Part shown: positions 18,517 through 64,000 of the stretch, in pieces
Layout: each line of letters opens with the position of its first letter
Position numbering within the stretch: position 1 is the stretch's first letter
IMG/VR virus record: IMGVR_UViG_3300002460_000021
Location: 34,682 to 98,681 of that record
DNA: 64,000 nt
DNA from: a virus
Reading direction: 5' to 3' (one strand)
Made by a program: the position numbers and the translations under genes
Notes under the pieces: generated by a model
What the model saw: the letters and a program-made list of their open reading frames with translations, nothing else
Told to the model about the DNA's origin: nothing
Databases searched by the model: none

Positions 18517-18534
18517 GTATGCACATGTGCGTAC
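18517..18534. repeat. Imperfect palindrome, candidate left end of the TnpB element
   Basis: GTATGCACATGTGCGTAC is an 18-bp palindrome with one mismatch, about 115 nt upstream of tnpB. IS200/IS605 elements end in subterminal hairpins, so it may be the left end. No second copy was found to confirm it. Confidence 0.35.
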
Positions 18535-30674: not shown

Positions 30675-32369
30675 TTACAATTTTGAACTGTAGTCTTCGT
30701 TGGCAGTCCTAGTAATCGTATCAAGGCCGTACGATACGGCCTCACTAATACGATCTGGACGTTTCTTCACTCCGCCGTTTTTAGGCGGATTAAACGCCTT
30801 GGCTATATCTAATATATTTCGACCCCAGCCCGGGTGTATACAAAATGGCGGCAATCCGGCCTTTAGCGCTATTTGTTCTACAAACATAAAGAATTTAAAC
30901 GCACTGCTATATTTCGATCGGACAGGCAGATCGAAATGGACCGTCTTGTTCTTATAGATCAGACACCCGGCATACCACGTATTTTCATTCTGGTCGCGGT
31001 ACTCCTCGTTAATTTTAAATGTGTAGTTACATATGCTCGTCCCTTCGCCGTCAATCCATTGGTTATTTCTTTCAACAATGATGTATTGATTGACCTTTAT
31101 CGTGCGCGCCGCCCAGTTATTCTTACCCAGCCGCGTATAGCGCCTACGGCTATGTTCGTGGCAGCTATCTAGAAACTTACCTTTGGCGTACTCCGGCATG
31201 TTCAATGCGCGTAGCAGCCCCTCGGCCTCGCCGTCGCTACACTTTTCCAAGTGCTTGTCCAATGCCTGCGGCCAGGGCAGCGCGCATTTATTAAGTTCGT
31301 GCAGCCAGCTAGAGCACCAGGAGATTTTGTCGTGATCTATTGCGTCGTGGTCGCTGACAGATCCATTAGCGGCTATGGCTTGCCTAAATACTTTGTGCGA
31401 CAGGTCGGCTTCCCAGAACACCCAGTGTTTCTTAGGTAGGTTGTTCCAGACGTGCGGATATCTAGTAGTGTCGTTGTAATAAAGTACAAGCGGGAGATAG
31501 CCGTCATTGTCTCGCAGATAACACGCTTGTAGGCGTAACACCAGCCCTGGATCGGCGAACGCAAATGCGGTGTTACCAAAATCTACATGGGGCGCAATCA
31601 CGGTATCATAAAATGCCAACCCGGCCTCTGTACCTTTCCTGCTGGGTTTAGTTCGCCCAGGCGGCATGTAGCGAAAATCCGCGTAATAAGGGCGTTTATC
31701 CGCCGTGCACCCCAACTGCCAGAATCCAGATATCATTCCAGGCAGACCGTGCGCGGCTAGAAAAAGACTACGGTTTTTTGTGAGTTTGCCGTTGGGTCTC
31801 GATAAGCCATTTGGCCTACCTAATCCCACGTACTTACTCATGGACGCGTACCAGCGTGACTGTACGCCTATTGGTGGCGTTATGTGCAATTGTTCGTTTA
31901 ATTTGTGCCTTTCCAAGCTATCCTGCACATAGCTTTCCTGGGCTGCTTTCCAGAATTTGTGTGTTCTTTCTCGCACGTCCGATATTAAATTTACATACTC
32001 GTCTACAATGTATTGCTGTCTGTCTTCGGCATTAAATAAAGGGACCCCTGCTGCGGATAGCTTACGTATCGTCGTCGGGATGTCTAGTTTCCACATTAGA
32101 CTAGCCAGTTTAATTAGATCGCCGTTAGCGTGACATACGGAGCAATTAAACCACTCCCAGTCGATAACGGGTTCTCTATAAATTGACAGCGCGCCGCCAC
32201 AGAAAGGACATATAATCGTCATAGGCAAGGCCTGGGCTGTCACTGTAATGCCCAGACAGGGTAAAATTGCAGCTGAGCGCGCATGGCGCATCATGGTGAT
32301 TGGTGATGGCGGTTCCTTATAGTGTTTGCGAAATCCACTTTTCCGCGGAGCTGTGTTTATGGCATCCAT
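30675..32369 (-). CDS. Zinc-finger, primase-like hypothetical protein
   Basis: 564 residues. Near residue 50-85 ICPFCGGALSIY and WFNCSVCHANGDLIKLASL form a CHC2-type zinc ribbon like those opening DnaG primases. The middle has no clear TOPRIM signature, and the rest is rich in Trp and Tyr. It could be a diverged primase or transposon-replication type protein. The ATG at 32369 makes its 5' end overlap the divergent plus-strand gene by 11 nt; ATG codons at 32294 or 32222 are alternatives. Confidence 0.6.
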   Translation of the reverse strand: MDAINTAPRKSGFRKHYKEPPSPITMMRHARSAAILPCLGITVTAQALPMTIICPFCGGALSIYREPVIDWEWFNCSVCHANGDLIKLASLMWKLDIPTTIRKLSAAGVPLFNAEDRQQYIVDEYVNLISDVRERTHKFWKAAQESYVQDSLERHKLNEQLHITPPIGVQSRWYASMSKYVGLGRPNGLSRPNGKLTKNRSLFLAAHGLPGMISGFWQLGCTADKRPYYADFRYMPPGRTKPSRKGTEAGLAFYDTVIAPHVDFGNTAFAFADPGLVLRLQACYLRDNDGYLPLVLYYNDTTRYPHVWNNLPKKHWVFWEADLSHKVFRQAIAANGSVSDHDAIDHDKISWCSSWLHELNKCALPWPQALDKHLEKCSDGEAEGLLRALNMPEYAKGKFLDSCHEHSRRRYTRLGKNNWAARTIKVNQYIIVERNNQWIDGEGTSICNYTFKINEEYRDQNENTWYAGCLIYKNKTVHFDLPVRSKYSSAFKFFMFVEQIALKAGLPPFCIHPGWGRNILDIAKAFNPPKNGGVKKRPDRISEAVSYGLDTITRTANEDYSSKL

Positions 32370-41483: not shown

Positions 41484-42452
41484 CTAGCGAGATAGGACTG
41501 CTGCGGCTACTAGAATTGGATCTATTTTTGATAGGCATTCTGGAAGGTGGCTGCCATCAAGAAGTTGCAGCGGACGACGGCAAAGAAAGCCGTCTGGAAA
41601 TGTACTGTCGTTGTGAGGTGGGACAACAGAACAACTCCAGCAGCCGCCAGTTTGACAGCAGTCGAGTTGCCCTATTGTATGAAAGAAATGATGAGGCGTT
41701 ATTAGGTGCGCGGCATTAGGTAGCGCTGTGTTGTCTCTGGTAAAGGCGGTCCACCACCATGATTCTCTGCCGCCTGCCACCACTACACACGGCTTAGAAA
41801 ATGCCGCGGCAATCAGCATGGGCAGGCTAACGCCACATAATACGCCTTCTGCATGGTATATGAGGCGTATTAATTCACGTAGCGTAGTTTGGCCGGTGCG
41901 ATCGACTACATTGAGTAATTTATGATGTGTATGCTGAAATCTAGCATCGCCGCGGCAGCCTGCTTGTACCCAGTTAGTGCCGCGGGTATGTGTGTAATCA
42001 ATTACAGACTGAAATCCTGCCTTTGACCAAATTTTAGTTGCGGCGTCGGGCTTACCGCCAGCAACTACGACCCAGTAAGGCTCTTGGTAATAACTGGAGT
42101 GCTGTTCGCTTTGAGATAGATGTAAATCAGGATACGGGTCAGTTAATGTGACTTTTATACCTGTCTGCCGCGTTAGGTCTCGATGAAACGAATCTAGAAA
42201 ATGAAGACGCGCTCCGTTTTTAAACACGTCATCTATGTCAGTACGGTAATTTAATCGAATTTTTCTTACTGCGTCGCCTGGGCCGAGGTGAATTAAATAG
42301 GGATTATACTTTGCTATTTCCCCACCACCTGTTGCCTCTAACCCCACCTCAATATCCGGATATTGACGATGAAGATCGCGCACTAACGCCGTAACCGCTA
42401 CGGTATCTCCTGCGGCCATGGGGACTTGCAGAAGTATACGCTCAGAAGCCAC
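41484..42452 (-). CDS. GT9 glycosyltransferase (heptosyltransferase-like), copy 1
   Basis: 322 residues from the GTG at 42452. GT-B fold of family 9: LLQVPMAAGDTVAVTALVRD at the start, WVVVAGGKPDAATKIWSKAG, RLIYHAEGVLCGVSLPMLIAAA and KPCVVVAGGRESWWW. The end is Cys-rich: LDCCQTGGCWSC, FLCRRP and LPECLSKI. This spacing recalls the iron-finger cysteines of TibC/AAH-type O-heptosyltransferases. With hldE in the same genome it may use ADP-heptose. It lies beside the tail-fibre genes. Palindrome site 7 is inside the gene. Confidence 0.8.
   Translation of the reverse strand: MASERILLQVPMAAGDTVAVTALVRDLHRQYPDIEVGLEATGGGEIAKYNPYLIHLGPGDAVRKIRLNYRTDIDDVFKNGARLHFLDSFHRDLTRQTGIKVTLTDPYPDLHLSQSEQHSSYYQEPYWVVVAGGKPDAATKIWSKAGFQSVIDYTHTRGTNWVQAGCRGDARFQHTHHKLLNVVDRTGQTTLRELIRLIYHAEGVLCGVSLPMLIAAAFSKPCVVVAGGRESWWWTAFTRDNTALPNAAHLITPHHFFHTIGQLDCCQTGGCWSCSVVPPHNDSTFPDGFLCRRPLQLLDGSHLPECLSKIDPILVAAAVLSR
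42351..42364. promoter_or_regulatory. 14-bp palindrome, site 7 (18-bp dyad, inside GT9 gene)
   Basis: Core extended to 18 bp (TCAATATCCGGATATTGA), about 90 nt after the GT9 start. It encodes QYPDIE. This could be an operator inside the gene. Confidence 0.5.
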
Positions 42453-46527: not shown

Positions 46528-47241
46528 TTAATTAATAGCGTCATTTCGAATATGGAAATTACCCAGGTCTCCGCAACGGCTCATGTGACCATACGCGTAG
46601 CCCGGTGTCGGGAAATACTTGTGTCTAAACTCCTCCCATCTATCATACCCGTGGTATTCTCCCAGTATGAATTTAATCTTATTTCGCAAGGTTGTTTTAC
46701 CCAGTATCGAGTACTCACTCCCTTCGCAGTCCAGTTTAATGCAGTCTATTTGTTCTCTGCCTTCTTTATGCATTATATCTTCTAGCGTTACTTTGGGCAT
46801 ACTACGACAGTCATGCCAGTACTGAGCATCCTTGTGGCCTTCTTTTAAATCTGTTATTGGGACGACGGTCGATCCGCCTGTATTTAAACAGTTAGGGCTA
46901 ACCGAATTTAACAGCCCCAGCTCACCCTCCTCGTAAGTGCACGCCGCACGTATTACTTCAGCGAAGCTGTCCACATTTGCGTGTAATGCGTCTAAATTCT
47001 CAGGACACGCCTCAACGCATACGATCCGCGCTGTAGGATCTTTATCGTGCCACAGTCTAGCAAATGAGCCAATATGGGCGCCTATATCAATAATCAATTC
47101 ATTAGACCGCCGCCGCGGAAACAGCAAATAAGTCTTATACGCATCAGCGTGGTATACTTCATTGATTATACCGATATCCTGACTGCGGTTATTAGCGCGC
47201 ACCCAGAAGCCATTCGCCAATACTAATCCTGCTTTAGTCAT
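46528..47241 (-). CDS. FkbM-family methyltransferase
   Basis: 237 residues. S-adenosylmethionine-binding fold: NELIIDIGAHIGSFARL, IVCVEACPENLDALHAN, and VTLEDIMHKEGREQIDCIKLDCEGSEYSIL, the usual FkbM series. FkbM enzymes mostly O-methylate sugars. With the adjacent glycosyltransferases this suggests a methylated glycan on the virion or on the host surface. It overlaps the next gene by 4 nt (ATGA). Confidence 0.88.
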   Translation of the reverse strand: MTKAGLVLANGFWVRANNRSQDIGIINEVYHADAYKTYLLFPRRRSNELIIDIGAHIGSFARLWHDKDPTARIVCVEACPENLDALHANVDSFAEVIRAACTYEEGELGLLNSVSPNCLNTGGSTVVPITDLKEGHKDAQYWHDCRSMPKVTLEDIMHKEGREQIDCIKLDCEGSEYSILGKTTLRNKIKFILGEYHGYDRWEEFRHKYFPTPGYAYGHMSRCGDLGNFHIRNDAIN

Positions 47242-48428
47242 CTGATATGTCTCATCTCTATGGGCATTCTTTCGTGCCTAAACCAACGCCCGGCCCATGT
47301 TTCTGTATTAACGTGTGTTAGTTTACAAGTCGGTTCGTTGTCCCCCAGCAGTATCAAGAAGGGTTGCCCCGCTATAGTGGCTGTATTCCACGCGCGCTCA
47401 CATGCCGCGGCGCCCTCTCCAACGGTACGGTCACTATTTAACGTCATATCTCTGTTATCGTGGCCCACGCGCGTGTATTTAAAACGACAGTCTTTGACGA
47501 GCTCGTAAGATGGCTTGTCGGGTTCCGCCGACCACCAAATACGACCGCACCAGTTCTCTCGTAGTTGTTTAATAAAATCTCTGCATAGCGGCTCGTGCCA
47601 AAAATCGAAAATGTGTTTATTGGCTCCGGAGTAGTTCCACTTATCCATATTCCTGTGTTGAAAAATCCGGTACCCCTTGAAGTCACGCTGACACATTGTC
47701 GAATCAAGAGAATAAATTGGGTATGGCGGTATTGAGTATGGAGTATCTAGCCTATGAAAAGCTAACTGGAATGTGCACTTATCGCCATGGATATACCGGT
47801 AATAGAAATCCGAGTGTTCATTGTAATGCCTGGCTAACGATAGCGCCTTCCAGCAGCGCTGCTTGTCTGCAATTACTTGCCCGCTCTCTATCTCCGGCTC
47901 ATCGCGGTAGGGTACTTCGCATATTTGCCAGATGGGCCGCTCTACGCCCAGACGCCCATAGTCAGGCCAGAATATGGCGCCATTCGTTTTGTATTCCTGC
48001 GTATCGAACAAATACGACGGATCGGCGGTTGGGATATTGTCCGCGTCTAATAGTAGTACTTCATTAAATCGTGAGTATAGCAACGCGAACGCCTTCAACT
48101 CCCAGCCGTTGAGATTCTTCATCGGATAAGTTTTAGCGATCTGCTGTGCATTTACACACTCTACGTCTAGTTCTTTGACCACTGCGATCGTAGCGGGATC
48201 CATCTCACATTCGTCCAGATACCACAGCTGGATTGGCAGGCTACACTTAAAGTGCCGCAGCATGTTGATACAGACCCAGGCATTAGTGAATAAACGGGCG
48301 CCGCCGCCACAAATCACTATACCGCGACCGTTAAATAGCTGTGTTGGATATGGGTCTGTATTGGCAATAAAGTCGCTAGCCAGCTTTTGGTATTTTTGAA
48401 TAACGTTGTGTGAATGATGCCAGGTCAT
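47238..48428 (-). CDS. Glycosyltransferase (alpha-mannosyltransferase-like, GT71-type)
   Basis: 396 residues. RGIVICGGGARLFTNAWVCI, LPIQLWYLDECEMDP, and FNEVLLLDADNIPTADPSYLF (DxD motif) match the putative mannosyltransferase family related to fungal MNN1. It lies in one operon with FkbM and GT9. The donor sugar cannot be read from sequence. Confidence 0.8.
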   Translation of the reverse strand: MTWHHSHNVIQKYQKLASDFIANTDPYPTQLFNGRGIVICGGGARLFTNAWVCINMLRHFKCSLPIQLWYLDECEMDPATIAVVKELDVECVNAQQIAKTYPMKNLNGWELKAFALLYSRFNEVLLLDADNIPTADPSYLFDTQEYKTNGAIFWPDYGRLGVERPIWQICEVPYRDEPEIESGQVIADKQRCWKALSLARHYNEHSDFYYRYIHGDKCTFQLAFHRLDTPYSIPPYPIYSLDSTMCQRDFKGYRIFQHRNMDKWNYSGANKHIFDFWHEPLCRDFIKQLRENWCGRIWWSAEPDKPSYELVKDCRFKYTRVGHDNRDMTLNSDRTVGEGAAACERAWNTATIAGQPFLILLGDNEPTCKLTHVNTETWAGRWFRHERMPIEMRHIR

Positions 48429-48430
48429 GG

Positions 48431-49360
48431 TTATCGATCCTTATTGCTGTACTTATCCACAGCTGCGGCAACTTCATCTGGTGTGATCATGGTAAGGCAG
48501 CGAGGTGCCCAGTCATTTAGGCCGACAGCCGCCGGTTGATCGCACAGGCTGTTGTCGTGTGCTTCGCCATCATTAAGTTTAACCGTACGTGACTTCCAGC
48601 AGGCCTTATTAAAACAACACTTTAAGGCACCTACCGTATGTAGTGTAGTCTGCTTGGGGTACTGCACCCACGGCACCGGCTCCCTGCCCCCTAGCAGGCA
48701 CACGTAGGGTTTTTCAAATGCCGCGCACAGGTGTTGCAGAAATGTACTGGGGCCCAGGCCGCCCTCCGCATGATACGCTAATCGAATTAGCTCCCGCGGC
48801 GTGGTTTTTCCTATTTGGTTTATCACACCAGTTAAAGGCGCATGCGTGTGACCGGTCTCTCCAATCTGCACAAACAGCACCTTTCCTGCAAGATTGTTGA
48901 CTACTTCTTGGTAATGTGGGTACCACTTAGCCGTAAAGTCTTTTTTGTAACCGGCATTTATAATCCAGTATGGTACTTTCTTGCCTACAATTTCCTGTAT
49001 GCGGCCTTTCCACGCTTTTTCTTGTTGCGATAAATATACATAAGGCCTATTAACCTTAAGCGGTATGCTTTCACTTAACTGCTCGCTTAGAAACTCACAA
49101 TAAGCCTGCATAAAATGCAGCGGGCGCTGGTCGCTCTGATGAATAGCCGGATAATTCATACGGATTATTCGCGCGGTGCCGTCTGGCCTGGGTGTTATTA
49201 ACGGGTTGTGTTCAAAGATTGCTGGTACGGATACATCTACGCTGATTTTAAACTTATTAGGTATAGCTCGATGAAGACTTTCGATAGCCGCAGTCATCAC
49301 GAGGACATCGCCTGGCGATAACTTGTTTTCTAGTACCAGTGCTTGTGTGGCTGTATCCAC
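48431..49360 (-). CDS. GT9 glycosyltransferase (heptosyltransferase-like), copy 2
   Basis: 309 residues from the GTG at 49360, with GGGGTGA upstream. ENKLSPGDVLVMTAAIESLHR at the start, YWIINAGYKKDFTAKWYPHY, LIRLAYHAEGGLGPSTFLQH and KPYVCLLGGREPVPW define family 9. The Cys-rich end (LKCCFNKACWKSR, LCDQP, PRCLTMITPDEV) matches copy 1 and recalls TibC-type enzymes. The next gene downstream is a glycosyltransferase; the genes just upstream encode Ser-rich tail proteins, which are candidate acceptors. Confidence 0.82.
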   Translation of the reverse strand: MDTATQALVLENKLSPGDVLVMTAAIESLHRAIPNKFKISVDVSVPAIFEHNPLITPRPDGTARIIRMNYPAIHQSDQRPLHFMQAYCEFLSEQLSESIPLKVNRPYVYLSQQEKAWKGRIQEIVGKKVPYWIINAGYKKDFTAKWYPHYQEVVNNLAGKVLFVQIGETGHTHAPLTGVINQIGKTTPRELIRLAYHAEGGLGPSTFLQHLCAAFEKPYVCLLGGREPVPWVQYPKQTTLHTVGALKCCFNKACWKSRTVKLNDGEAHDNSLCDQPAAVGLNDWAPRCLTMITPDEVAAAVDKYSNKDR

Positions 49361-53003: not shown

Positions 53004-54383
53004 TTACAGGTCTATCTCGTATACGCCGTATTGCGGAGGAACGATTAACCGCAGCAGGGTTGTTCGTAGCGTCTGATCGAGAGCACTGGTACCGAATGAG
53101 GTTGATTTAAACTTAATGACGATAGCCGCGTTACGCAATACGTTAGAAACTAGGAAGTTGAGTGGATTAATAACAGACGGAAGGCTATTGACGTCCGGGT
53201 CGCCGACTTGTTGTGCTGGTGCACGCAGGTCTAGTAGCTGCGCCAGGGTTCTAGCGCCAGCTGCTGTACCGTTCGTATGTACGGTATCCCAAAACAAAGT
53301 CTCATCGCCAGCGACGCCTCCTAACGAGAATTGTACCTTCGTTCGACTAGCGACAGTCGATACCTGCAGCGCAACATCGGCGTTTGTGAAAGTCAATCCG
53401 CCAACATAGCCGCCATTTAGTTGTGTAACCGGCAATGTCAGGCTAGCTAATGTACCTGCGGACGGTGTTCCAGCGCCTAGGTCTATTATCTTAACGGCGT
53501 CGGTTATTTGCGCCCCCTGGCTAAGAACCTGGCCGACGCTGACTATTACGTTCGCTGCGCTGCCACAGACATAAACATTCTTATCAGTAATAACTAGCTT
53601 ACGATCCGTCTCTGTAGTTACGTCGATTACTGTTTCGGTCGCCGTCAACACTATCGGAGCATCGCAGAACGAGGCTAGTGCACGGTCTAGTTGTAGACGG
53701 CATGTTCCTACTAGCAGAGCATCCCACAGCGCGTTTAAAAGATCCTTGTATTGCTCTGAGGTAGCCAGTTCTACGCCTAAGATGTAGCCAAACTGTTTAA
53801 GCAGGTAGCTACGATCAAAGTCAGCAGCAAAGAACCACAGAGTCAACTCTCGGTCAACAATCCCGCCGGCCGCGTTATAAAACAGCTCCTGATCAAGCCG
53901 CGAATCGGCAAATGGGTTGCTAAGGAAGCGGATACGGCCGCCACCGGTATCAATCATGTAATCGACATCCGTAGCCCACACCAGCGTAGGTGCCACAGCG
54001 TTATTGACAATTAACGGCGCCAGCGTCATATCTGCCGGCAGAGCGTAATCGAATACATGGTTATTGAGCGTGGTGCTGGCAGACGCACCCAGGCCGTCGC
54101 TAGCCTGGTATGTAAGGCGCTCATCTACTAGTAACTCAGACTGTTTAATTGTTAGTGGCTGCCAACGAATACGCTGATATAGCGGGGCTCCTGTCAATCC
54201 TGTCAGCTGATTACATTCTTGCAAGTTATTGCGTGTTTGATACTCTGCTTCTCCTCGAGCCTGTGCATATGTAGCAATTACATCGGCGCCCTCGTACAGC
54301 CCCGACCAGAATGTGCCAATTATATCTAATAGCTGCTGCGGCAGTACGAGTTGTGCCGTCAAGTCGGTTATATCCGTTGCCAT
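53004..54383 (-). CDS. Baseplate or tail-connector protein
   Basis: 459 residues from the ATG at 54383 (MATDITDLTAQLVLPQQLLDIIG). It contains FWSGLYEGADVIATYAQARGEAEY, a Trp/Phe-rich middle, and a beta-rich half ending LRLIVPPQYGVYEIDL. It has the look of large baseplate connectors. Together with the baseplate J-like gene at 60169 it brackets the exported-protein cassette. Confidence 0.6.
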   Translation of the reverse strand: MATDITDLTAQLVLPQQLLDIIGTFWSGLYEGADVIATYAQARGEAEYQTRNNLQECNQLTGLTGAPLYQRIRWQPLTIKQSELLVDERLTYQASDGLGASASTTLNNHVFDYALPADMTLAPLIVNNAVAPTLVWATDVDYMIDTGGGRIRFLSNPFADSRLDQELFYNAAGGIVDRELTLWFFAADFDRSYLLKQFGYILGVELATSEQYKDLLNALWDALLVGTCRLQLDRALASFCDAPIVLTATETVIDVTTETDRKLVITDKNVYVCGSAANVIVSVGQVLSQGAQITDAVKIIDLGAGTPSAGTLASLTLPVTQLNGGYVGGLTFTNADVALQVSTVASRTKVQFSLGGVAGDETLFWDTVHTNGTAAGARTLAQLLDLRAPAQQVGDPDVNSLPSVINPLNFLVSNVLRNAAIVIKFKSTSFGTSALDQTLRTTLLRLIVPPQYGVYEIDL

Positions 54384-54400
54384 TCCGCACCAATTAAAAG

Positions 54401-54439
54401 GGCGTGCGCGGCGGGCCCGTGAACACCGCAGCGCACGCC
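54401..54439 (-). terminator. Hairpin downstream of the exported-protein cassette
   Basis: GGCGTGCGC pairs with GCGCACGCC (9 bp), with a further 4-bp stem inside the loop. It lies between palindrome site 8 and the start of the baseplate gene at 54383. Confidence 0.55.
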
Positions 54440-54446
54440 ACAAGAT

Positions 54447-54460
54447 AATATCCGGATATT
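54447..54460. promoter_or_regulatory. 14-bp palindrome, site 8 (16-bp dyad)
   Basis: TAATATCCGGATATTA, 3 nt after the stop of the last cassette gene and 64 nt upstream of the next start. With site 9 it flanks the whole exported-protein cassette. Confidence 0.75.
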
Positions 54461-54462
54461 AC

Positions 54463-54888
54463 TTAGCGACCGATACGAACACGATCGATACGCGTTGCCC
54501 CGAACAAGCCCTGCCGAATGATTGTTCGTTCACGAACGATGCGCGGGCGCACACCGACCACTACAGCACCAGATCGCACTACGACCGCGGACGACCCAAA
54601 TACACCGAAGCTAGAACGGCTGGAGAAAAACGTAGATGTAAACGGGAAACCCACGACCGCCGGAGTAGATACGACAAATGGTGCCGCCACAACCGCAGGC
54701 GGCGCACTAAAGACCACAGGAGCAGCCACGGATACCGTAGGCACAAATGTTGGAACAGCTACAGCCGCAAAAGAAACGTTCGGGACTGCCACTACGCCAA
54801 CGCTCGAAAACACAACACCACGATTACAGGCCAGGGCGGGCGCTGCTGCGCAAGCCAGGACCAGAAGAACTGCAACAAACCTCTTCAT
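54463..54888 (-). CDS. Exported Val/Ala/Pro-rich protein
   Basis: 141 residues with a clear signal peptide (MKRFVAVLLVLACAAAPALA, then Cys). The mature part is Val/Ala/Pro/Phe-rich (VPTFVPTVSVAAPVVF, SSFGVFGSSAVVVRSG) and ends basic (GATRIDRVRIGR). Such low-complexity exported proteins are common in Planctomycetes. GGAG lies 8 nt before the ATG. It may be an outer-surface or tail-tip protein. Function is unknown. Confidence 0.65.
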   Translation of the reverse strand: MKRFVAVLLVLACAAAPALACNRGVVFSSVGVVAVPNVSFAAVAVPTFVPTVSVAAPVVFSAPPAVVAAPFVVSTPAVVGFPFTSTFFSSRSSFGVFGSSAVVVRSGAVVVGVRPRIVRERTIIRQGLFGATRIDRVRIGR

Positions 54889-54934
54889 GACATCGTCTCC
54901 TCTGAATATTCGACCAATACTCTACACATTTATC

Positions 54935-55525
54935 TTACCGTCTTGTGGACAGTTGAGACAAGATAGCAAGTTCACGCATGGAAACCGCATATACGGAATG
55001 CGTATCGCCCTTGGCAGCTGGCGGCATTTGCGCCGTACGGCTAGTGTCTAGGATCTTATCTACTGTAATGTTAGGCGCATACGCCCCGGCTACGTTAAAC
55101 AAAGAGACCCCGCCTTTGCCGGCTCCTGTGTGACACGTACTGCAGCGATTACGCAGCACGGAAATGGCCGTAAAGGTTTCAGGCGACTGAATAGACAGAG
55201 ATGGCAGCGCCTCTACTACAGCCGGCGGGCCGTCACCATCTGTTTGCTCTCTGATAATTGCCTCTAGGCGCTCGCGTATTAGCTGGTCAATGCGGCTAGT
55301 TTCTGTTTCTACAGGCGCTGCAGTAGCGACGGCTGCTGGTTGCAGCGCAGGCAGATACGAAAATTGATACGCTGGAACAAGGATAGGCACAGCGACCGGA
55401 ACTACTACATCCGCGACTGCCACTACCTGGTTATGTACGACGTTAGATCGGCACACGCCCGCATTGCTGTTGTCCGGGCAGCACAGGCAAATACAGGCTA
55501 GCGCGGCAATAAATAAGTAACGCAT
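54935..55525 (-). CDS. Exported c-type cytochrome domain protein
   Basis: 196 residues from the ATG at 55525, which has AAAGG at better spacing than the ATG at 55531. A signal peptide with Cys (ALACICLCCPDNSNA) is followed by a Val/Pro-rich stretch. The heme site CSTCH (128-132) continues GAGKGGVSLF, and a MPP motif near 170 probably supplies the axial Met. This is the pattern of planctomycete-type monoheme domains. In a phage genome it is very unusual. It is next to a second CxxCH protein. Confidence 0.8.
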   Translation of the reverse strand: MRYLFIAALACICLCCPDNSNAGVCRSNVVHNQVVAVADVVVPVAVPILVPAYQFSYLPALQPAAVATAAPVETETSRIDQLIRERLEAIIREQTDGDGPPAVVEALPSLSIQSPETFTAISVLRNRCSTCHTGAGKGGVSLFNVAGAYAPNITVDKILDTSRTAQMPPAAKGDTHSVYAVSMRELAILSQLSTRR

Positions 55526-55527
55526 GT

Positions 55528-57051
55528 TCATTTACCTTTACTTTGACCAAGCAAGTAAATCATTAAATTAGGGAATGCCGAGCGCTCCCACTGATCACGA
55601 CGTACTAACTGAGGAGGTTGCTGCAAGCGCCCCACAAGGCGCGGATCCAGGTTTACGCCCTTACGCAGGGCCTCATCTATTGTTTTTACATCACAGCCGG
55701 CTTCTTGCGCTATAGTAACCGTGGTCAGTGAGACATCTAAATGTTGGTGAGTATATTCACTCATTGCCGCGCTAAGCTCAGCAGGAGTTAGCCCGCAAGC
55801 GGCCATGACGGCTTTGGCGTAGAATGCTTGGTCGTATGCCACCACTTCTGCTATATCTACGCTAATTTGATCAGTAACACGCCTGTACAGCTTCTCATCA
55901 GCAATAAGCAGGGCCAGCTTATCTCGGCTCATCTCACGGATACTATCTCTAATAGGCCTAAATCCTTTAACCGCGGCATGGCACATCATGCAATTACGTG
56001 CGACCCAGATTTGCTTATCCTTTAATGGTGTTACGTAGTCTTGCGCTATATTAGGATCCGCTACATCAAGTCGCTTGCCCTCCGCGTTAACTACGAAGTA
56101 AGCAGATAAACCATTACGTAAAGTAGCGATAATTTCCTTGGCGTCAGGCTTATCATTAAATAGGTTTAGTAAGACGTCTTTCTCGTCGACCGAGTCTAGG
56201 AAGTCATAAGATGTCCATTTAGAACCCCCAACAACGCCGGACAGCGTAGGCTCGCGTAGCAGGAAGCGGTTGTGGCTAGCTACATCTGAAAGCGTTACCG
56301 CGCCTCTGATTTCTTGTTTCTTACCCTTCGTAGGTTCAGCTAGCGCTAGTATGTCGAAGTCTGCTTCTGTTTTGCCGAGGCCGAGAAAGTCGTAGTACCG
56401 CGGCGCCCAAGTAGCATAAACTATAAACCAGTCAGCTCGTAAAATAGGATTTTTAGTTCTGGTGGCTGTAATAAGCGAGCTTATCGCTTTACCACCATCT
56501 AGGGCCACCCATGGCGCAGAGGCCACTGTTTTTACCCGGCGTCGTCCAGATTCAACCTGTTGAACTTCGTACTGCGGACGTCTAAAGTTGTCGTAGCCGA
56601 CAACAACTTGTTTTTCTTCGTACTCAATCTCGTCTTGCGTAACCGCTGTATGAAAATACGGATCGCCGCGCGGCGTGGGCCCGCTTCCCTTTTCAGCTAG
56701 GTCGTCCCAGCTTTTAGCTGACCACGTGTAATCGCGACAGTCTATCCGCAATAGCCACGGATTGTCTTCTTTTGGCAAAGCTACCGGTATTTTAAGGCTA
56801 CGCTCTCGACTAAGAGAATTAGCAACGAAAGACACTACTGCTGCAAGACGACGGCGTTCGGTAGCACTAGGAATGTGGTACAGCGACAAATATCGTGTGT
56901 ATGGTTGTACGGCTAACGGCACGGCTGCGGAATCTGCAGCCGCGCGTTGTACGCTCGTATACGGCGATTCAATGGCCCCGGCAATTACGGGTTGCGCAAT
57001 TGCCGGGGCAATATAGATCAGCCAGACACAGGCGGCAATAACTAGCCGCAT
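55528..57051 (-). CDS. Exported protein with CxxCH heme-binding motif
   Basis: 507 residues. Signal peptide MRLVIAACVWLIYIAPAIAQ. There is a long globular region without known domain (SYDFLDSVDEKDVLLNLFND and the like). CMMCH at 354-358 comes after DKQIWVARN. A helical C-terminus follows (YHQHLDVSLTTVTIAQEAG-like). AAAGGA precedes the ATG. It resembles exported cytochrome-like proteins of Planctomycetes, and its stop is 3 nt from the next cytochrome start. The redox role is inferred only from the motif. Confidence 0.72.
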   Translation of the reverse strand: MRLVIAACVWLIYIAPAIAQPVIAGAIESPYTSVQRAAADSAAVPLAVQPYTRYLSLYHIPSATERRRLAAVVSFVANSLSRERSLKIPVALPKEDNPWLLRIDCRDYTWSAKSWDDLAEKGSGPTPRGDPYFHTAVTQDEIEYEEKQVVVGYDNFRRPQYEVQQVESGRRRVKTVASAPWVALDGGKAISSLITATRTKNPILRADWFIVYATWAPRYYDFLGLGKTEADFDILALAEPTKGKKQEIRGAVTLSDVASHNRFLLREPTLSGVVGGSKWTSYDFLDSVDEKDVLLNLFNDKPDAKEIIATLRNGLSAYFVVNAEGKRLDVADPNIAQDYVTPLKDKQIWVARNCMMCHAAVKGFRPIRDSIREMSRDKLALLIADEKLYRRVTDQISVDIAEVVAYDQAFYAKAVMAACGLTPAELSAAMSEYTHQHLDVSLTTVTIAQEAGCDVKTIDEALRKGVNLDPRLVGRLQQPPQLVRRDQWERSAFPNLMIYLLGQSKGK

Positions 57052-57066
57052 AGGACGTCCTTTCTA

Positions 57067-57429
57067 CTAGCGGGAAGCAAGGATTTGCGGCAGAATCTTA
57101 AGTAGCGCATTCATAATCTCTGGAGAGTGCTCAATCATCTTACGGATTAGTTGGGCAATAATAGGATGATCGCCGCGACCAACGGCGTACTTAATTTCCG
57201 GGTCTGTTCCGCCATGCAGCAGTAATAGCAGCAGTTTAAACAGGTAGGGTTCAAACATCTTGGCGGCACTAAGTAGCCATTCCTTACTGTAGCCGCGATC
57301 CAGTAGATCTAGTACCAGCTGCAATACCTCTGTGCCGTGTTCTTTGACAAAGTCTCGCGCTATATCGAGATTAAATCCAGCTGTCGACGCGCGATAAATC
57401 ATGTCTTCCATACGAGTCGTTTCTTCCAT
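57067..57429 (-). CDS. Small helical hypothetical protein
   Basis: 120 residues, all-helical, Leu-rich (LQLVLDLLDRGYSKEWLLSA, LFKLLLLLLHGG, MNALLKILPQIL). There is no signal peptide. It sits between the cytochrome gene and the protease gene in the same direction and has AAGGAAG before its ATG. It may be a cytoplasmic or amphipathic accessory to that cassette. Not recognised. Confidence 0.65.
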   Translation of the reverse strand: MEETTRMEDMIYRASTAGFNLDIARDFVKEHGTEVLQLVLDLLDRGYSKEWLLSAAKMFEPYLFKLLLLLLHGGTDPEIKYAVGRGDHPIIAQLIRKMIEHSPEIMNALLKILPQILASR

Positions 57430-57445
57430 GGCTGCACTTCCTTAA

Positions 57446-59350
57446 TTAAGAGACTACTGGAGGATCGGTATGATCCTCATCAGGATTGTCTGCCGCTAAT
57501 TGAATTGCAAACGCGTCAAACGGCATACGCCGTTGCCAGTGTGCTTCCACTAGGCGATAGCGCCCGTTCATTCCGAAGCGTGTTCCCCACGAATTAGGCC
57601 CACCGGGGCACCATTCTTGTCGCCTGGCTGAGTAGTGTAGTTCGTCTTGTGCTAGCGCATGTCCGCCAATGGGCATTTTGGCCACGGGGGCAATACCCTC
57701 GCCATCAAGATCACCGAAGTCACGATCGACTAGAATACCGGACACTACAAGAAATCCGAGTGTAAGCGCTGTACACAATTCATCAAAGCTATTCAGTTTA
57801 TAGGCCTCGGCAATGACATTCTTCTTTGCTTCTACAAATGCCTCCTTGGGGAACTGATTTCGAAACATTGCGCCGCGCGGCATAACTCGTTCGGGGGCAA
57901 TCCCATAGGTCTTGAGGGCAACCAGGGCGTCTGAGATAACGGCGCCTTCGTCGCGGCCGCCGTTGATCAGGCCGTAAACAAAGTGTGCGGACAGGTCTTC
58001 CAGAGGCTGCCCGGAAATAACGCGTGCTTTGGCGGCTGCAGAAGCCGAAGCCTGACCTGTGCAGTTATGGACACCGATACTTTCTGCTACATAACTATTA
58101 TCTCCAGCAACCTCAAAATTATACACTGGACCAGAAAATTTAACTGCCTCTATTTTATGTACTTTCCGCCAAACATGTTTAGTATCCTGTGTAGCATAAC
58201 GATTACATTCCGATGCACACGTAACATAATCTAAATCCCAGCGCGGTTGCCTGTACTTTACACCGTGGCTTGGTCTTTGTTGCGAATAACGAATGGTCGG
58301 TTGTTTTCCAGTCGCGTTGGCTATGTCAAACATCGATAATGTTAAGTCGTGGGATATGCTTACACCGTTGGTAGTGTTACGCCTAGTGAAGCCATCTCCG
58401 TCCAACCAACCTTGTAGTATTGCGGCCATAAAGTCGGCGGGCCCGGATGTTATGTCTGGATGTAATTTTTTATTCCCGGCACCGTTGGAGCACAGCGCCT
58501 CGAATAGCAAAGCCCACGTTTTGCCGAAAATTATTACGTTAATTGAGTTATTGGGACGCCGCTGTACACTGGCTTCCAAGCCCCACTCTTCGCGTAAAAG
58601 TTCAACCAGCTCTGCTACGAGCGTATGTTCCTCTGTAATATTAAAAGTCCAAAGTACACTTGAACCGCTCGTACAGCCTTCGGCAAGAAATAATCCAAAA
58701 ATTCGCCCAGCGCCCTTAGTTAAATGTATAATGTCAGGTATGTGTATAATTATGTGAGTTTTAGCAGCACGGCCGCAAACCCCGGCGAATTTCTTGGCCT
58801 TTCGCTTACGTACTAGACTCCTATGTAATACAACGTGATCTCCTGTTTGTAAAATATTATTTGTACACGGTAAAAATTTCGGTAGCGCTACGGTATCGTT
58901 TTCTTGAAGATCTCTTACCGCAACATATCCTCGTTTGGTAAGTATCGGGTGTTCCGCTGTAGCAGCCAGATGGCGGTGCCCCCACAGCTGTAAACGCAGC
59001 AATTCTTTTGGTTCAGTCCGCACTGTTAAATTAACTACAGTTCCTATATTGCCTTCGGCTGTTAATACGCGATCCAGCAAACAAATTTTCTCTATTGGTC
59101 TTTGGCTGCCGTCCGCCATTCGAATACGAGTACCCGCGGGGAAGCAGCTGCTTTCGGACCCCTGGTCTCTAATTGCGACGCCGCCGTCCATCTTCATCTC
59201 TTGCCACTTAGCGCGCGGCAGGACCGCTTTAGCATCTGCCCAGGCCGGCAGCGCACAATTAAGATGTGGCGGCAGACAGGCTAACGCCCGGTATTCGCCC
59301 GCTTGTTCAATTACCGGAATTCCGGCGTCGTTGTAGATAATCTCACTCAT
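57446..59350 (-). CDS. Papain-like (C1) cysteine protease containing an intein
   Basis: 634 residues before splicing. The extein has 68 residues ending IRDQGSESS and 205 residues beginning CTGQASASAAA. Joined they give the papain active site: the Gln of DQG, the catalytic Cys430, the His in IGGHALA and the Asn in GGPNSWGTRFG. There is no clear signal peptide. The spliced protein is about 273 residues. Phage-encoded papain-like proteases are rare; this one lies in the cytochrome cassette within the tail module, so a role in entry or virion maturation is possible. Without splicing it should be inactive. Confidence 0.85.
   Translation of the reverse strand: MSEIIYNDAGIPVIEQAGEYRALACLPPHLNCALPAWADAKAVLPRAKWQEMKMDGGVAIRDQGSESSCFPAGTRIRMADGSQRPIEKICLLDRVLTAEGNIGTVVNLTVRTEPKELLRLQLWGHRHLAATAEHPILTKRGYVAVRDLQENDTVALPKFLPCTNNILQTGDHVVLHRSLVRKRKAKKFAGVCGRAAKTHIIIHIPDIIHLTKGAGRIFGLFLAEGCTSGSSVLWTFNITEEHTLVAELVELLREEWGLEASVQRRPNNSINVIIFGKTWALLFEALCSNGAGNKKLHPDITSGPADFMAAILQGWLDGDGFTRRNTTNGVSISHDLTLSMFDIANATGKQPTIRYSQQRPSHGVKYRQPRWDLDYVTCASECNRYATQDTKHVWRKVHKIEAVKFSGPVYNFEVAGDNSYVAESIGVHNCTGQASASAAAKARVISGQPLEDLSAHFVYGLINGGRDEGAVISDALVALKTYGIAPERVMPRGAMFRNQFPKEAFVEAKKNVIAEAYKLNSFDELCTALTLGFLVVSGILVDRDFGDLDGEGIAPVAKMPIGGHALAQDELHYSARRQEWCPGGPNSWGTRFGMNGRYRLVEAHWQRRMPFDAFAIQLAADNPDEDHTDPPVVS
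58064..59146 (-). mobile_element. Intein with LAGLIDADG endonuclease, at the catalytic cysteine
   Basis: Residues 69-429 (361 residues). The N-terminal Hint block begins CFPAGTRIRMADGSQRPI. Block B includes TAEHPILTKRG. LAGLIDADG-like motifs are GRIFGLFLAEGCT and LQGWLDGDGF. The C-terminal block is SGPVYNFEVAGDNSYVAE and ends GVHN before the +1 Cys. The +1 residue is the catalytic cysteine of the protease. All splicing residues appear present. Confidence 0.88.
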
Positions 59351-59351
59351 A

Positions 59352-60092
59352 TTAATTGCCCCTCAGTATCTTTACTCGCGCGATTATGTCCGCCTCGGCA
59401 GTTGGCAGCGGCACAGCAACCAGTACCTTGCCGCCATTGTTCTGGATAATTAAAGCGGGGACGCTACCAATCTGCTGTAAGACAGGCGAAAAATTCTTAC
59501 GTTCTAGCGCCGGATCCCTGACGCTGTAAATTCGTGGGATAGCGTTTAGGTCGGCTAGAGCTTTGCGTAACGTAGTAGATACTAGCAGCTTACCCAGCTC
59601 GGGTGTGCGTTTTTGTGGGTCTTCTACTATAGTTACATGTAATTGATCGCTAGCGGGTGTTGGAGTTGGAGTAGGTTCAGGCGTAGGGCCTGGTGTTGGC
59701 GAGGGCCTGGGGTCGGGCGGAGTCACAATAACCTCCGTGCGTGCGGCAGGCGTCAATTTTCCATTAACAACGCCGACGCAAAATATCATGACAGTGGCTT
59801 CGGTGGGCGGAACGCTAACAATTAATTCCTTGGTTGTCGTATTCTCTTGATATTTTAGCTTGGGATGAGTGCCAATAACAATCCAACGTACATCTCCTGT
59901 GCACTTGGCTGTTACTAGTACGAAGCCTTCGTCATACGCCACCTTCTGTGGCGCGCTAATTTCTAGGCCTTCGACTTTAAATTCGGCGGCAGCTGCCGCC
60001 GGTGCAGGTGCCTTGTCTTTCTCTTTGTCCGCGCCGAATGCGGTAGTGAGAAACATCCCTGCTACAATCAGGGCATACAATATCCTTGTCAT
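59352..60092 (-). CDS. Exported protein with Pro-rich linker and thioredoxin-like end
   Basis: 246 residues from the ATG at 60092, with AAGGAG 6 nt upstream. Signal peptide (TRILYALIVAGMFLTTAFGA), then an Ala/Lys spacer and an Ig-like beta domain (KVAYDEGFVLVTAKCTG...WIVIGTH). A Pro/Thr linker follows (PTPGPTPEPTPTPTPA). The last 80 residues (IPRIYSVRDPALERKN, SVPALIIQNNGGKVLVAVPL) look like a thioredoxin fold without CxxC. It is the first gene of the cassette, one nucleotide before the protease gene. Confidence 0.68.
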   Translation of the reverse strand: MTRILYALIVAGMFLTTAFGADKEKDKAPAPAAAAAEFKVEGLEISAPQKVAYDEGFVLVTAKCTGDVRWIVIGTHPKLKYQENTTTKELIVSVPPTEATVMIFCVGVVNGKLTPAARTEVIVTPPDPRPSPTPGPTPEPTPTPTPASDQLHVTIVEDPQKRTPELGKLLVSTTLRKALADLNAIPRIYSVRDPALERKNFSPVLQQIGSVPALIIQNNGGKVLVAVPLPTAEADIIARVKILRGN

Positions 60093-60156
60093 ATACGGCT
60101 CCTTCATGAAATCTAGTACGAAACATTACCATTGGTAAGCGCCGGCTGTCCACAGC

Positions 60157-60170
60157 AATATCCGGATATT
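60157..60170. promoter_or_regulatory. 14-bp palindrome, site 9
   Basis: Perfect core, overlapping the TAA stop of the baseplate J-like gene and 65 nt upstream of the first cassette gene (60092). With site 8 it flanks the cassette. Confidence 0.75.
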
Positions 60171-61821
60171 AGGCTACTGTTATTGTCACGTCGCTAGCGC
60201 GGCAAAAGAAGCCCACGGTGTTGGCAGTGACTAAATTAGCAGCGTCTGTACCAACATCTAGCGTAGTGCTTGTAGCCGATAAATTTATATCCGTATTATC
60301 TGCCCGATGCACGCGTCCGGCCAGAGTTGAGGTGGTAATGGTGTTACCTGCGGGTAATAACGCCTGTATCGCCGCGGTGGCAACTGCAACCGCCGCCTTG
60401 CCAGTGAAGCCAATATTATTAATGGCGTCGGCGGCCGCTTGTTTTAGCGGACCAGTAACTAGAGCGGCCGTTCCCGAAGATTGTGTAATTGTTACCGCCG
60501 CCGTTACAAAGCAGGGCACCGGGGCGCGTACGAGCGCATCCCCAGCCAAGCTGCGATTGTTGGAGTTTGACAATGCGTCTTGTAACGCGGTTACGCCGGG
60601 CAAAACTCTAACAAACACGCTATAAGCTTTAGTGGATACGTTTACAGTCAACCCGGATATCGAAGTGTCTGTATCCGTAAATTGCACTGTAGATGTTTCA
60701 TACCTGCTATAAGCAGCTTCTGTAGCTGCAGTTATGTCTGGTAGGAAGATAGTGCTATCAGTGGTTCCTACCGAAATATCGTATCCACGTGTTTCCTGGT
60801 TTATGGTGTAGCCAGCTAGCGCAGTATTGTTGTCGTTGGCCGGGAGTAGTATTTTCTCAATCTCATAGAACCCCGGGGCGTCGTCACGAGTAATCGTAAA
60901 TTGCCACTTACCCTGGCCTCCGGCCGTACTAATCAAAGTAGCTGTTTTAGTTAATTTAACTGACTGCCATAGCGCTTGCGTACGTACCCACACATCTATA
61001 CGGCCTGGGAGCGTAACTGGAAGAATACTGTGGTTACGGCGCTGCTCAGCGTCACCAAAGCCGGTTACAGAGGATGCCAGTATGTTGGCAAATCCTGTCT
61101 GCGCGCGTATTAGCCCATCTACGCCTGTTCGGTTAGCTAGCGATCGCGAAGTCCAGCTACTCTGCTGCCGCGCTAGCAGCTGAGCGTTTGTTTCCGCATC
61201 AGTGCCGCCGGTAAAGTCAGTTGCTACATATGTCGATGAAAGACCTGAGATTGTCGGTGTTGCAGTTAACGCAGCCAGCCGCGGCAAGTTGCCAGCGGTG
61301 CCCACGGCAGTGTCTGTTACGGAGACTGTAAATACGAATGTACCGTTGCCCACGGCAGATATTAGGCGATCAGTAGTTGCTACCACGTTTACTGAAGAAG
61401 TTCGTCCTGTAAATGCAGAGAGTGTCTTATACGTTCTGCCGGCGCCGTCGGTGAAAGTCTGTCCCAGAGGAATTGTTACAGTCACCAGCGAGGTTAGTAC
61501 GATAGCTACAGTACCAGTAGCAGAGGTTCCTGAAGACGGGGTGATACGATAATTTGACATTAACCTGGCGACGGTATCAGCATCCGCCAATGTTGGATCG
61601 GCTGTAATTTCTCGCAAACTATTGGACCGGCGAATACGGTCTATATTATCCTGGTTCACTGCCGCCATGGCGGACGAAAGCACAAGCACTAGATCGTGGA
61701 CCGCGCCGCGTTTAAAGTCGGCTGTCGGGTAGGCCGCCTGCAGCATTGACTTAACTAGCTGCAGGTTAGCGTCAAATGTAGCTTGGTCAAGCTCATCAAT
61801 AGAGGTAACTGTAAGCCCCAT
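60169..61821 (-). CDS. Baseplate J-like protein
   Basis: 550 residues. The start (VTSIDELDQATFDANLQLVKSM), VTIPLGQTFTDGAGRTYKTL and FTGGTDAETNAQLLARQQSSWTS match the baseplate J/gp47 family. The rest is Thr/Ser/Ala-rich beta structure. It forms part of the contractile-tail baseplate. It is followed by palindrome site 9. The stop codon is in that site. Confidence 0.85.
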   Translation of the reverse strand: MGLTVTSIDELDQATFDANLQLVKSMLQAAYPTADFKRGAVHDLVLVLSSAMAAVNQDNIDRIRRSNSLREITADPTLADADTVARLMSNYRITPSSGTSATGTVAIVLTSLVTVTIPLGQTFTDGAGRTYKTLSAFTGRTSSVNVVATTDRLISAVGNGTFVFTVSVTDTAVGTAGNLPRLAALTATPTISGLSSTYVATDFTGGTDAETNAQLLARQQSSWTSRSLANRTGVDGLIRAQTGFANILASSVTGFGDAEQRRNHSILPVTLPGRIDVWVRTQALWQSVKLTKTATLISTAGGQGKWQFTITRDDAPGFYEIEKILLPANDNNTALAGYTINQETRGYDISVGTTDSTIFLPDITAATEAAYSRYETSTVQFTDTDTSISGLTVNVSTKAYSVFVRVLPGVTALQDALSNSNNRSLAGDALVRAPVPCFVTAAVTITQSSGTAALVTGPLKQAAADAINNIGFTGKAAVAVATAAIQALLPAGNTITTSTLAGRVHRADNTDINLSATSTTLDVGTDAANLVTANTVGFFCRASDVTITVA

Positions 61822-61832
61822 ATATAGCTCCG

Positions 61833-62297
61833 TTAAGCCACAAAACGACGTCCGGGCGCGGATGGATCGATAACCAGCGGTAGATTAATTAACCCCGAAT
61901 CCCCGGCCTTGTTTTTAATTAAAATGGTCAGTTGCAATAGCCCCGGTGCCACCACTACTTTTTGTATGCCGGCACCTCCAAAACGTTCAGAGTCCGGGTC
62001 TGCGACTGTCTCTTCAGCTGATAGACTACCAGCTAGTTGATTTAAAGCTTGATTGAAGGATACAAAGGCATCAAATTCTGACAACACCTGACCGGGCGCC
62101 AAACTGTCTATAAAGCTAGTGCCGCGCTGGGGCAGGAACGGCAATGAGCCAGTGCTGGTTAGCAGTTCCAAAAGAACTCGCTGGGCCAGTTTTTCCGCTC
62201 CTGTTATTGTACGCCCACTAGGAGAGTCCGCACTGACTATTGTCTGCGTTACGGCGGTAGCGGATGTTTGAAAAAGGGCTAGATCATATGTAGCCAT
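61833..62297 (-). CDS. Baseplate wedge-type protein (gp25/GpW-like)
   Basis: 154 residues: TGAEKLAQRVLLELLTSTGSLPFLPQRGTSF has the pattern of gp25-like baseplate proteins. SFNQALNQLAG and a beta-rich end, LQLTILIKNKAGDSGLI, follow. It is located just upstream of the J-like gene, as usual. The start overlaps the upstream gene stop (TAATG). Confidence 0.7.
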   Translation of the reverse strand: MATYDLALFQTSATAVTQTIVSADSPSGRTITGAEKLAQRVLLELLTSTGSLPFLPQRGTSFIDSLAPGQVLSEFDAFVSFNQALNQLAGSLSAEETVADPDSERFGGAGIQKVVVAPGLLQLTILIKNKAGDSGLINLPLVIDPSAPGRRFVA

Positions 62298-62779
62298 TAG
62301 GCCTCCGCAGATATAGCGGGCCCAGAATACCCGCTTGCTAGCGTATTTAGCAGATAATCTTTAACTGCGGCAAACACACTGAATTCTCCGCCATGACCAC
62401 GTCGGCGGCCGGCTGCGTGGTAATTACACCGTACTGAGGAAGCGTGCCGCGCACGAAAGGCGCGCTCCATGGCGGCAATATAGTCTAATTGGACTTTAGA
62501 CACATAACGATCGGCCAGTCTGCCACCAGCGACAGTGCCGGCCGTTTCCACCGCTTCGGCGTACGCGGCGTTAAATTCATCGCGGCAGAATGCGTCTCCT
62601 ATGCCCGAGATGTTGAATAGATCTCCATTCCATGTTTCCAGAGATGGCATCATCCATAGACGCTGTACACTGGGCGCTACGCCACTGACGAGTACGCTTT
62701 CGCCTGTAGTAAGCGCAGTGCTCTGGAGCTCAGTAAATTGCCTGTCTAGGCAAGTATTTCCAACCTCTGCGATTGGCAT
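62297..62779 (-). CDS. Hypothetical baseplate-associated protein
   Basis: 160 residues. LFNISGIGDAFCRDEFNAAYAEAVETAG and QLDYIAAMERAFRARHASSV are helical; RCNYHAAGRRRGHGG is a basic loop. It is between the sigma-like gene and the gp25-like gene, overlapping both. Not recognised. Confidence 0.62.
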   Translation of the reverse strand: MPIAEVGNTCLDRQFTELQSTALTTGESVLVSGVAPSVQRLWMMPSLETWNGDLFNISGIGDAFCRDEFNAAYAEAVETAGTVAGGRLADRYVSKVQLDYIAAMERAFRARHASSVRCNYHAAGRRRGHGGEFSVFAAVKDYLLNTLASGYSGPAISAEA

Positions 62780-63531
62780 TAGTAGATCCCTGCTGACGGC
62801 GCCATTTCAATTTTTTCTTGAATTTTAGCTTTGCGCTGGCTGACGGCACCAGGCGATAACCGTAACTTGGCCGCGAGTTCTTGGTTAGATAGAATAGGAC
62901 GGCCGTGCAGCCCGGCGGTATGCTCCAAAATAGACTGCGATATTGGGTCGAGGTCGGCGTGTACAAACTTTAGCCAGGCTTCCTGTGTAGCTGCCTTCAT
63001 GGGCGAGATAACCCCAGGCGCTGTAACGTGTGTTCCCTCTTCATCGTGGCGAATTTGAGAACCCTCTGCGTAGGATGGGCGCAATCCTCGTGCGTAGCTT
63101 ATGCGCTTTAACGAGAGCCCGGTATGATCGGCCAATTCTGCGTCGGATGGCTCTCGCCCCAGCGTGTCACGTAGCGTTGCCTCGCCGCCATGCAGGTGGC
63201 CCAGGTCCAAAAGAAGTTGTTCTGGTATGTGCACAGCCTGTAACTCTTTTGTGGCCACGCGACGCAACGACTGTAACTGAGTAAGTAGATGAGTTCGTAT
63301 CTTAGAACGATTAGGATCGTAGTTCTGCAGCGCGGACAAGGTTAATTGCTTGGCCTTACCAACTAGAGTAGGGCTAGCTGCGGAACCGCCGCCATAACTC
63401 CTTATAGCTTCTGTTATTACAGGCTGAACAGTCTTTAACAGTTGACCAGACGTTTCCGGATTAGGGGATTTGCGCCAAGCCGTGTAATGGTCGGCGAACT
63501 CTGGTTCGAGGTAGTTTTTATTCGGCAACAT
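62779..63531 (-). CDS. Sigma-70-like transcription factor
   Basis: 250 residues from the ATG at 63531, with AAGGAGG at ideal spacing; a longer start at 63564 lacks one. The order is an N-terminal helical part (YDPNRSKIRTHLLTQLQSLRR, like region 2/3), then LRDTLGREPSDAELADHTGLSLKRI (region 3 helix-turn-helix). The end (LSNQELAAKLRLSPGAVSQRKAKIQEKI) is region 4 type. It could direct RNA polymerase to phage late promoters. It sits at the end of the tail block. Confidence 0.8.
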   Translation of the reverse strand: MLPNKNYLEPEFADHYTAWRKSPNPETSGQLLKTVQPVITEAIRSYGGGSAASPTLVGKAKQLTLSALQNYDPNRSKIRTHLLTQLQSLRRVATKELQAVHIPEQLLLDLGHLHGGEATLRDTLGREPSDAELADHTGLSLKRISYARGLRPSYAEGSQIRHDEEGTHVTAPGVISPMKAATQEAWLKFVHADLDPISQSILEHTAGLHGRPILSNQELAAKLRLSPGAVSQRKAKIQEKIEMAPSAGIY

Positions 63532-63557
63532 CGCGGCCTCCTTGCCATTACTTGATT

Positions 63558-64000
63558 CTAACACATTTTTGATAGTGCCGAAATAACACTGCGGGTCGTC
63601 AAATCGTCAGATACCATAAGACCGATAGTTGAAGCCCACTGTGCTATTGTATCACGATATTCATTTAAACCGCCCGTATTATAAATTACCGTGTCGCAGC
63701 TAGCCCTAGTGTACGTTACCGTGGGATCCTCGGCATTACCAGGGCGGCAGACCCATATAATATGATCTAGCAAGTGTTCCGCGCGCGCGGCTTCCAATTC
63801 GCACTTATCACGAATTCCAACAACTATCTCACCCAGCGCCAACGATTCTCTAATAAGCCTAGCGGGATCGTTTTTACGGTACTCGTCTAGGTACTGCTTC
63901 CACAGCATCCTATGCTGATGGCGACGCTCCCAGGCCAGCATCTGACAAATTCCTAGACGCTGAGACATATACGGCAGGCCGGCCCAGCTGAGCGAGCCGG
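63558..64000 (-). CDS. Nucleoside-monophosphate-kinase-like protein, N-terminus outside window
   Basis: The frame is open to the right edge, so the protein is incomplete here; an ATG at 63968 is internal. VVGIRDKCELEAARAEHLLDHIIWVCRPG and SCDTVIYNTGGLNEYRDTIAQW resemble the C-terminal half of phage deoxynucleoside monophosphate kinases. The P-loop would lie off the window. A role in supplying nucleotides is inferred. Confidence 0.55.
   Translation of the reverse strand, partial: GSLSWAGLPYMSQRLGICQMLAWERRHQHRMLWKQYLDEYRKNDPARLIRESLALGEIVVGIRDKCELEAARAEHLLDHIIWVCRPGNAEDPTVTYTRASCDTVIYNTGGLNEYRDTIAQWASTIGLMVSDDLTTRSVISALSKMC

Follow-up and report, generated by a model that had tools for sequence, protein, structure and literature searches.

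A probable accessory late-gene cassette of jumbo and huge phages with predicted exported proteins, a cytochrome c and an intein-interrupted protease

We analyzed a 64,000-nucleotide stretch of virus DNA, here called the window, which covers positions 34,682 to 98,681 of the 98,681-bp IMG/VR record IMGVR_UViG_3300002460_000021 (G000:C1:34682-98681), a record that is itself probably a fragment. Six minus-strand open reading frames (ORFs) occupy window positions 54463-60107 in the transcription order g1-g2-g3-g4-g5-g6, with lengths of 251, 634, 120, 507, 198 and 141 amino acids (aa), respectively; all six genes that an initial annotation had placed here are present. We consider it probable that these genes make up an accessory cassette of late genes which jumbo and huge phages carry and exchange horizontally, and which is not a part of the tail and alters the host envelope. 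That the cassette is exported accessory cargo is very likely; that it has a specific role in envelope redox chemistry is doubtful.

The initial annotation placed the six genes between two baseplate genes. The upstream flank (60169-61821, minus strand) is a baseplate J protein by both Pfam (PF04865, Baseplate_J, 1.5e-10) and PHROG (phrog_6, 3e-18), and this half of the description stands; the downstream flank (53004-54443, minus strand) has no Pfam or PHROG family match and is gpI-like by position only, as the gene that follows J in 17/17 relatives found. These J relatives, 17 contigs, were found by a viral scan with two-sequence alignment. They keep the gene order sigma-lys-W-J-I, where sigma is window gene 62779-63564 and lys is 62297-62779 (no family name), with the exceptions that lys was not detected in L065 and L067 and that the L053 contig ends before I. 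The junction between J and I is empty in 10/17 relatives (L051, L052, L055, L059, L060 and L063-L067), short gaps are found in L057 and L061 and other genes in L056 and L062, and three contigs (L053, which is the same as L026, L054 and L058) hold versions of the cassette there, besides the window itself. In the ten relatives with an empty junction I follows J directly, so a tail can do without the cassette. A comparison with related phages had been proposed as the check on the cargo, or moron, interpretation, and it came out in favor of cargo: the same genes are not kept in all relatives, as a structural tail function would lead one to expect, and they appear to have arrived several times.

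Trees of J and of g4 bear on the number of arrivals. In the J tree the carriers do not group together and at least 2 changes are needed, a value as low as this being reached in 7/500 shuffles. In the g4 tree a single clade of the four tail-site copies is rejected (approximately unbiased test, p-AU 0.00015), and the window copy joins a huge-phage clade with support of 90/87. We read these results, with the caution that long branches call for, to mean that the cassette reached this slot independently at least twice.

The cassette also occurs well outside this tail site. Using tblastn and profile searches, all six genes were found in the same order in the 595-kb huge phage LR756511.1 and in L009/L022, L019 and L020/L021; L018 has g2-g6, its contig breaking off within g2. 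Reduced forms are g1-g4-g5 in L006, where another exported protein occupies the g6 position, g1-g4-g5-g6 in L007, and g4-g5 in L023, L024 and L008. No J homologue was found in the phage collection searched, and no direct J relatives were found in annotated phages. The kind of peptidase that accompanies g4 varies: papain-like proteases are near g4 in the window, L053 and the huge phages, and by eye in L008; matrixins (M10) are near g4 in L054 (2.3e-33, with a peptidoglycan-binding domain) and L023 (6.7e-16); and a subtilase (S8) is near g4 in L027 (4.3e-53). The L058 cassette has no peptidase, and L056 has a papain-like protein (by eye) and no g4. The peptidase near g4 is thus swapped between lineages while g4 persists, a pattern that was noticed post hoc and has no background rate. 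Because the peptidase type is replaceable while g4 persists, we take proteolysis to be part of the job of the cassette.

Both heme motifs reported in the initial annotation are present, and the two proteins that carry them differ in how far a cytochrome assignment holds. g5 (54935-55531, minus strand, 198 aa) is a predicted exported mono-heme cytochrome c with its CxxCH motif at C130. Residues C130, C133, H134 and the axial M169 are invariant in 9 sequences of one alignment and 12 of another, and the distal ligand M169 is followed by an invariant Pro. This ligand set of class I type makes g5 a convincing, well-supported mono-heme cytochrome c, its heme being predicted from the sequence. g4 (55528-57051, minus strand, 507 aa) is a predicted exported protein with one CxxCH motif at C354 and a RADWF signature; C354, C357, H358 and RADWF are invariant in 19 phage and bacterial sequences. 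Its AlphaFold2 model (mean predicted local distance difference test score, pLDDT, 82.5) gave no match at E<=0.001 against PDB and BFVD, so its predicted fold has no solved relatives and we did not file g4 under a known cytochrome family; the cytochrome status of g4 is that of a motif only. Bacterial proteins combine the g4 domain with PSCyt1 or another cytochrome domain, or with WD40, FGE-sulfatase or DUF4384 domains. Among window ORFs of at least 100 aa there is a single other CxxCH case, at 30675-32369, which lacks a signal peptide and appears to be a primase-like zinc finger. The literature searched held nothing on point about phage-encoded cytochromes or planctomycete phages, and the main text of the huge-phage paper does not mention cytochromes.

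The protease assignment of the initial annotation was borne out, and g2 (57446-59350, minus strand) also has a feature which that annotation missed. The papain residues Gln, Cys, His and Asn are all present, in order and conserved in alignment. Intein-free homologues match Peptidase_C1 (L053, 1.3e-7, 32.3 bits; L020, 3.8e-4, 21.0 bits; cut-off 20.7 bits), and the window g2, which is split by the intein, has no match. The predicted intein (58064-59146, minus strand, 361 aa, with LAGLIDADG motifs) accounts for the 634-aa length of g2, which would be 273 aa after splicing. It matches Pfam Intein_splicing (5.8e-10, 39.6 bits against a cut-off of 35.8) and TIGR01443 (intein_Cterm, 22.0 bits against 15.6), and g2 also matches Hint families and LAGLIDADG_3 in Pfam. 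Taking out the 361 residues from CFPAGT to HN joins DQGSESS to CTGQAS, and the counterpart of this joined sequence in the huge-phage protease is the intein-free DQGMTSSCVGHG, with which it aligns; therefore the intein sits directly before the catalytic cysteine. This cysteine doubles as the +1 splicing residue, so activity would need splicing, and the protease is predicted to be active only after the intein splices out. No intein was present in any g2 homologue found, and no earlier papain-type intein case was found in the literature searched. By eye, a ThyX-like protein has an apparent intein in L007 (15476-17455) and none in the close relative L006 (15225-16100).

Export signals were scored by a simple hydropathy rule. 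Signal-peptide-like N-termini are found on g1, g4, g5 and g6, which agrees with the four signal peptides claimed earlier, and are not found on g2 and g3; they are kept in homologues of the four proteins and are absent from g2 homologues. The earlier suggestion that the gene set acts in the periplasm can thus be kept for g1, g4, g5 and g6, on the strength of their predicted and conserved signal peptides, and not for g2 and g3.

g1 (59352-60107, minus strand, 251 aa) is a predicted exported protein with an Ig-like domain and a thioredoxin-fold domain. Its AlphaFold2 model (pLDDT 78.5) matches, by Foldseek in PDB, Ig domains and the PDI domains 4gwr, 4nwy and 1x5d (E 2e-3 to 3e-3, prob 1.00), which upholds the fold in the earlier thioredoxin-like description. 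The active site does not hold: the only cysteines, C69 and C110, are both outside the thioredoxin-fold part (residues 156-249), and because there is no CxxC a thiol-redox role of g1 is unlikely. Homologues of g1 are present in huge phages. g3 (57067-57429, minus strand, 120 aa) is a small helical protein without a signal peptide and without a Pfam or PHROG match, and its homologues stand in the same place in L005, L009, L018, L019 and L020. g6 (54463-54888, minus strand, 141 aa) is a predicted exported low-complexity protein rich in V, A and P; matches to its family are in the same place in L005, L009 and L018-L020, and low-complexity exported proteins occupy this place in L054 and L058. Among the cassette proteins tested with PADLOC, none matched a listed defense system.

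The initial annotation took two copies of a 14-bp palindrome as the exact borders of the cassette. The copies of AATATCCGGATATT are indeed at the flanks, upstream of g1 (60157-60170) and upstream of the gpI-like gene (54447-54460). They are two of 16 copies in the 98.7-kb record, 11 are found in the window at up to 2 mismatches against 0.17 expected, and no copy was found in the other related loci searched. Being spread over the record and absent from those loci, the palindromes were rejected as cassette borders. Several copies stand shortly before start codons of minus-strand genes (by eye), and the two near the cassette look like marks of gene starts rather than ends of an insertion. The palindromes are probably phage-specific regulatory sites and may be operators of a phage regulator. 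Elsewhere in the window a TnpB-like IS605 OrfB protein is encoded at 17247-18524, and a 34-bp perfect palindrome with a AATATCCGGATATT core (16995-17028) is close to its 3' side.

A planctomycete-type host, also proposed in the initial annotation, is suggestive only. g4 was found in 8/294 Planctomycetota, 2/299 Pseudomonadota and 2/199 Acidobacteriota genomes, each count including one seed genome, and g5 in some phages weakly matches the planctomycete cytochrome family PSCyt1; these results hint at such a host. A g1 profile found nothing in 294 Planctomycetota genomes, in a search without a positive control, and we count this result in favor of cargo.

From its position, the cassette would be transcribed late together with the tail genes. 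g1, g4, g5 and g6 would be exported through their predicted signal peptides, and, as the motifs suggest, g5, and probably g4 as well, would receive heme from the cytochrome c maturation machinery of the host outside the inner membrane. g5 could then shuttle electrons as a small carrier, with g4 as the larger heme protein that partners it, while g2 would stay in the cytoplasm or travel with the virion. Together the products would alter the host envelope late in infection, and the properties most likely to change are its electron transfer and protein make-up. A bolder form of this proposal, which we put forward tentatively as a possibility, is an undescribed envelope-acting module in which g4, g5 and g6 are combined with a protease that can be replaced by another type. 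Passing between unrelated lineages, it would seize periplasmic electron transfer or dismantle the envelope late, the intein making the protease dependent on splicing in this phage.

Other explanations have to be weighed against this one. The six genes might be virion or tail machinery, with g2 and g3 in the particle and the exported proteins on the cell surface aiding entry or adsorption. The lack of signal peptides on g2 and g3 would suit this, as would the place of the cassette among virion structural genes in several lineages (portal and tail fiber in L025, the major head protein in L023, and a head-tail adaptor about 4 kb away in L020), although we count that placement in favor of the preferred reading as well. 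The ten relatives with an empty junction argue the other way, and g1, g4, g5 and g6, with their conserved signal peptides, would leave the compartment in which virions assemble; we regard this explanation as unlikely. It also seems improbable to us that the cassette is an aid to lysis or envelope breaching in a host whose wall is rich in protein, as in Planctomycetes, in which the protease would digest the envelope, g3 permeabilize the membrane and the exported proteins prepare the periplasm. The late position, the three unrelated protease families near g4 (one of them with the peptidoglycan-binding domain of L054), g3-like helical proteins nearby (by eye) and the fact that cellular relatives of g4 are commonest in Planctomycetota all speak for it. 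On the other side, g2 shows no signal peptide and g3 no clear transmembrane segment, it is hard to see what cytochromes would do in lysis, and no host is proven.

Exported accessory genes of variable presence could also be a moron for stable carriage, whose cytochromes aid the respiration of the host, or prevent superinfection, for as long as the phage persists, and a cytochrome c is plausible as a host-fitness gene. Against this, no lysogeny genes turned up, though no search was aimed at them, the same-strand position inside the late genes argues against constitutive expression, and no separate promoter stands out: a consensus promoter scan of the scanned stretch gave 10 found against 9.4 expected, which is not above chance. 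We give this explanation little credence.

The reading that we prefer, an exchanged cassette acting on the envelope, has several points standing against it. That heme is attached, the proteins exported, the intein spliced and the protease active is in each case a prediction. The Cytochrome_CBB3 match of g5 (E=0.0014, 19.3 bits) is below the cut-off of 27, and the CxxCH of g4 falls in a lower-confidence region of its model. Several cassettes lack g1, the protease or g5, which rules out any one mechanism that requires all the components. The trees draw some of their signal from long branches (three for J, one for g4). Finally, the guanine-plus-cytosine fraction of the cassette is 0.504 and that of the phage 0.503, so there is no foreign composition and no sign of recent transfer. 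A recent transfer as judged by composition was rejected on this ground; because the composition matches that of the phage and the nearest cassette relatives are less than 45% identical, the cassette is old rather than a recent arrival.

If the preferred reading is true, exported c-type cytochromes and a protease form a defined set that is carried and exchanged by giant phages of several lineages, and no description of such envelope action by phages was found in the literature searched. In g2 a papain-like protease would stay incomplete, at the catalytic cysteine, for as long as the intein is in place, so that control of proteolysis by splicing can be tested directly; g4 would represent a heme-motif family shared with planctomycete genomes.

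Other genes were observed in the window and its relatives. The sigma gene encodes a sigma-70 region 3-like protein and precedes the baseplate genes in all 17 relatives. In relatives, further peptidase-like genes occupy the J/I and W/J junctions (L062 11643-13841, L063 6173-9988 and L052 9337-9999); they encode HExxH proteins (by eye) and a papain-like protease. A 1079-aa protein at window positions 1022-4261 combines a uracil-DNA glycosylase domain, a 3'-5' exonuclease domain and DNA polymerase A. Sugar-related genes at 15257-16747, 41484-42452, 46528-48428 and 48431-49360 encode a fusion of PfkB and cytidylyltransferase (HldE-like), two glycosyltransferase family 9 proteins, a mannosyltransferase and an FkbM methyltransferase; a similar HldE-like protein adjoins the cassette in L006 and L007 (by eye).

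Among known systems, the cassette at 481-486 kb in LR756511.1, an uncultured and unannotated huge phage, shares with the window all six genes in the same order at about 23-41% identity per gene, and differs in having no intein in its protease and in lying elsewhere in the genome. g5 resembles the cytochrome c families Cytochrome_CBB3 and PSCyt1 (Planctomycete cytochrome C) in its CxxCH, axial Met and signal peptide, but its score is sub-threshold, and the cytochrome that is fused to g4 in some bacteria (L015, L011) is separate in phages. g2 has the Gln, Cys, His and Asn of the papain family (Peptidase_C1) in order, and departs from it in having no signal peptide and in the intein that precedes its catalytic Cys. 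The intein is like other LAGLIDADG inteins in its Hint and endonuclease motifs and its His-Asn/Cys splice junction, and unlike them in that its host protein is a papain-like protease. Finally, although the cassette is not compositionally foreign and no promoter of its own is shown, in both of which it differs from phage morons, it shares with them and with other late-gene cargo the property of being present or absent between two conserved late genes.

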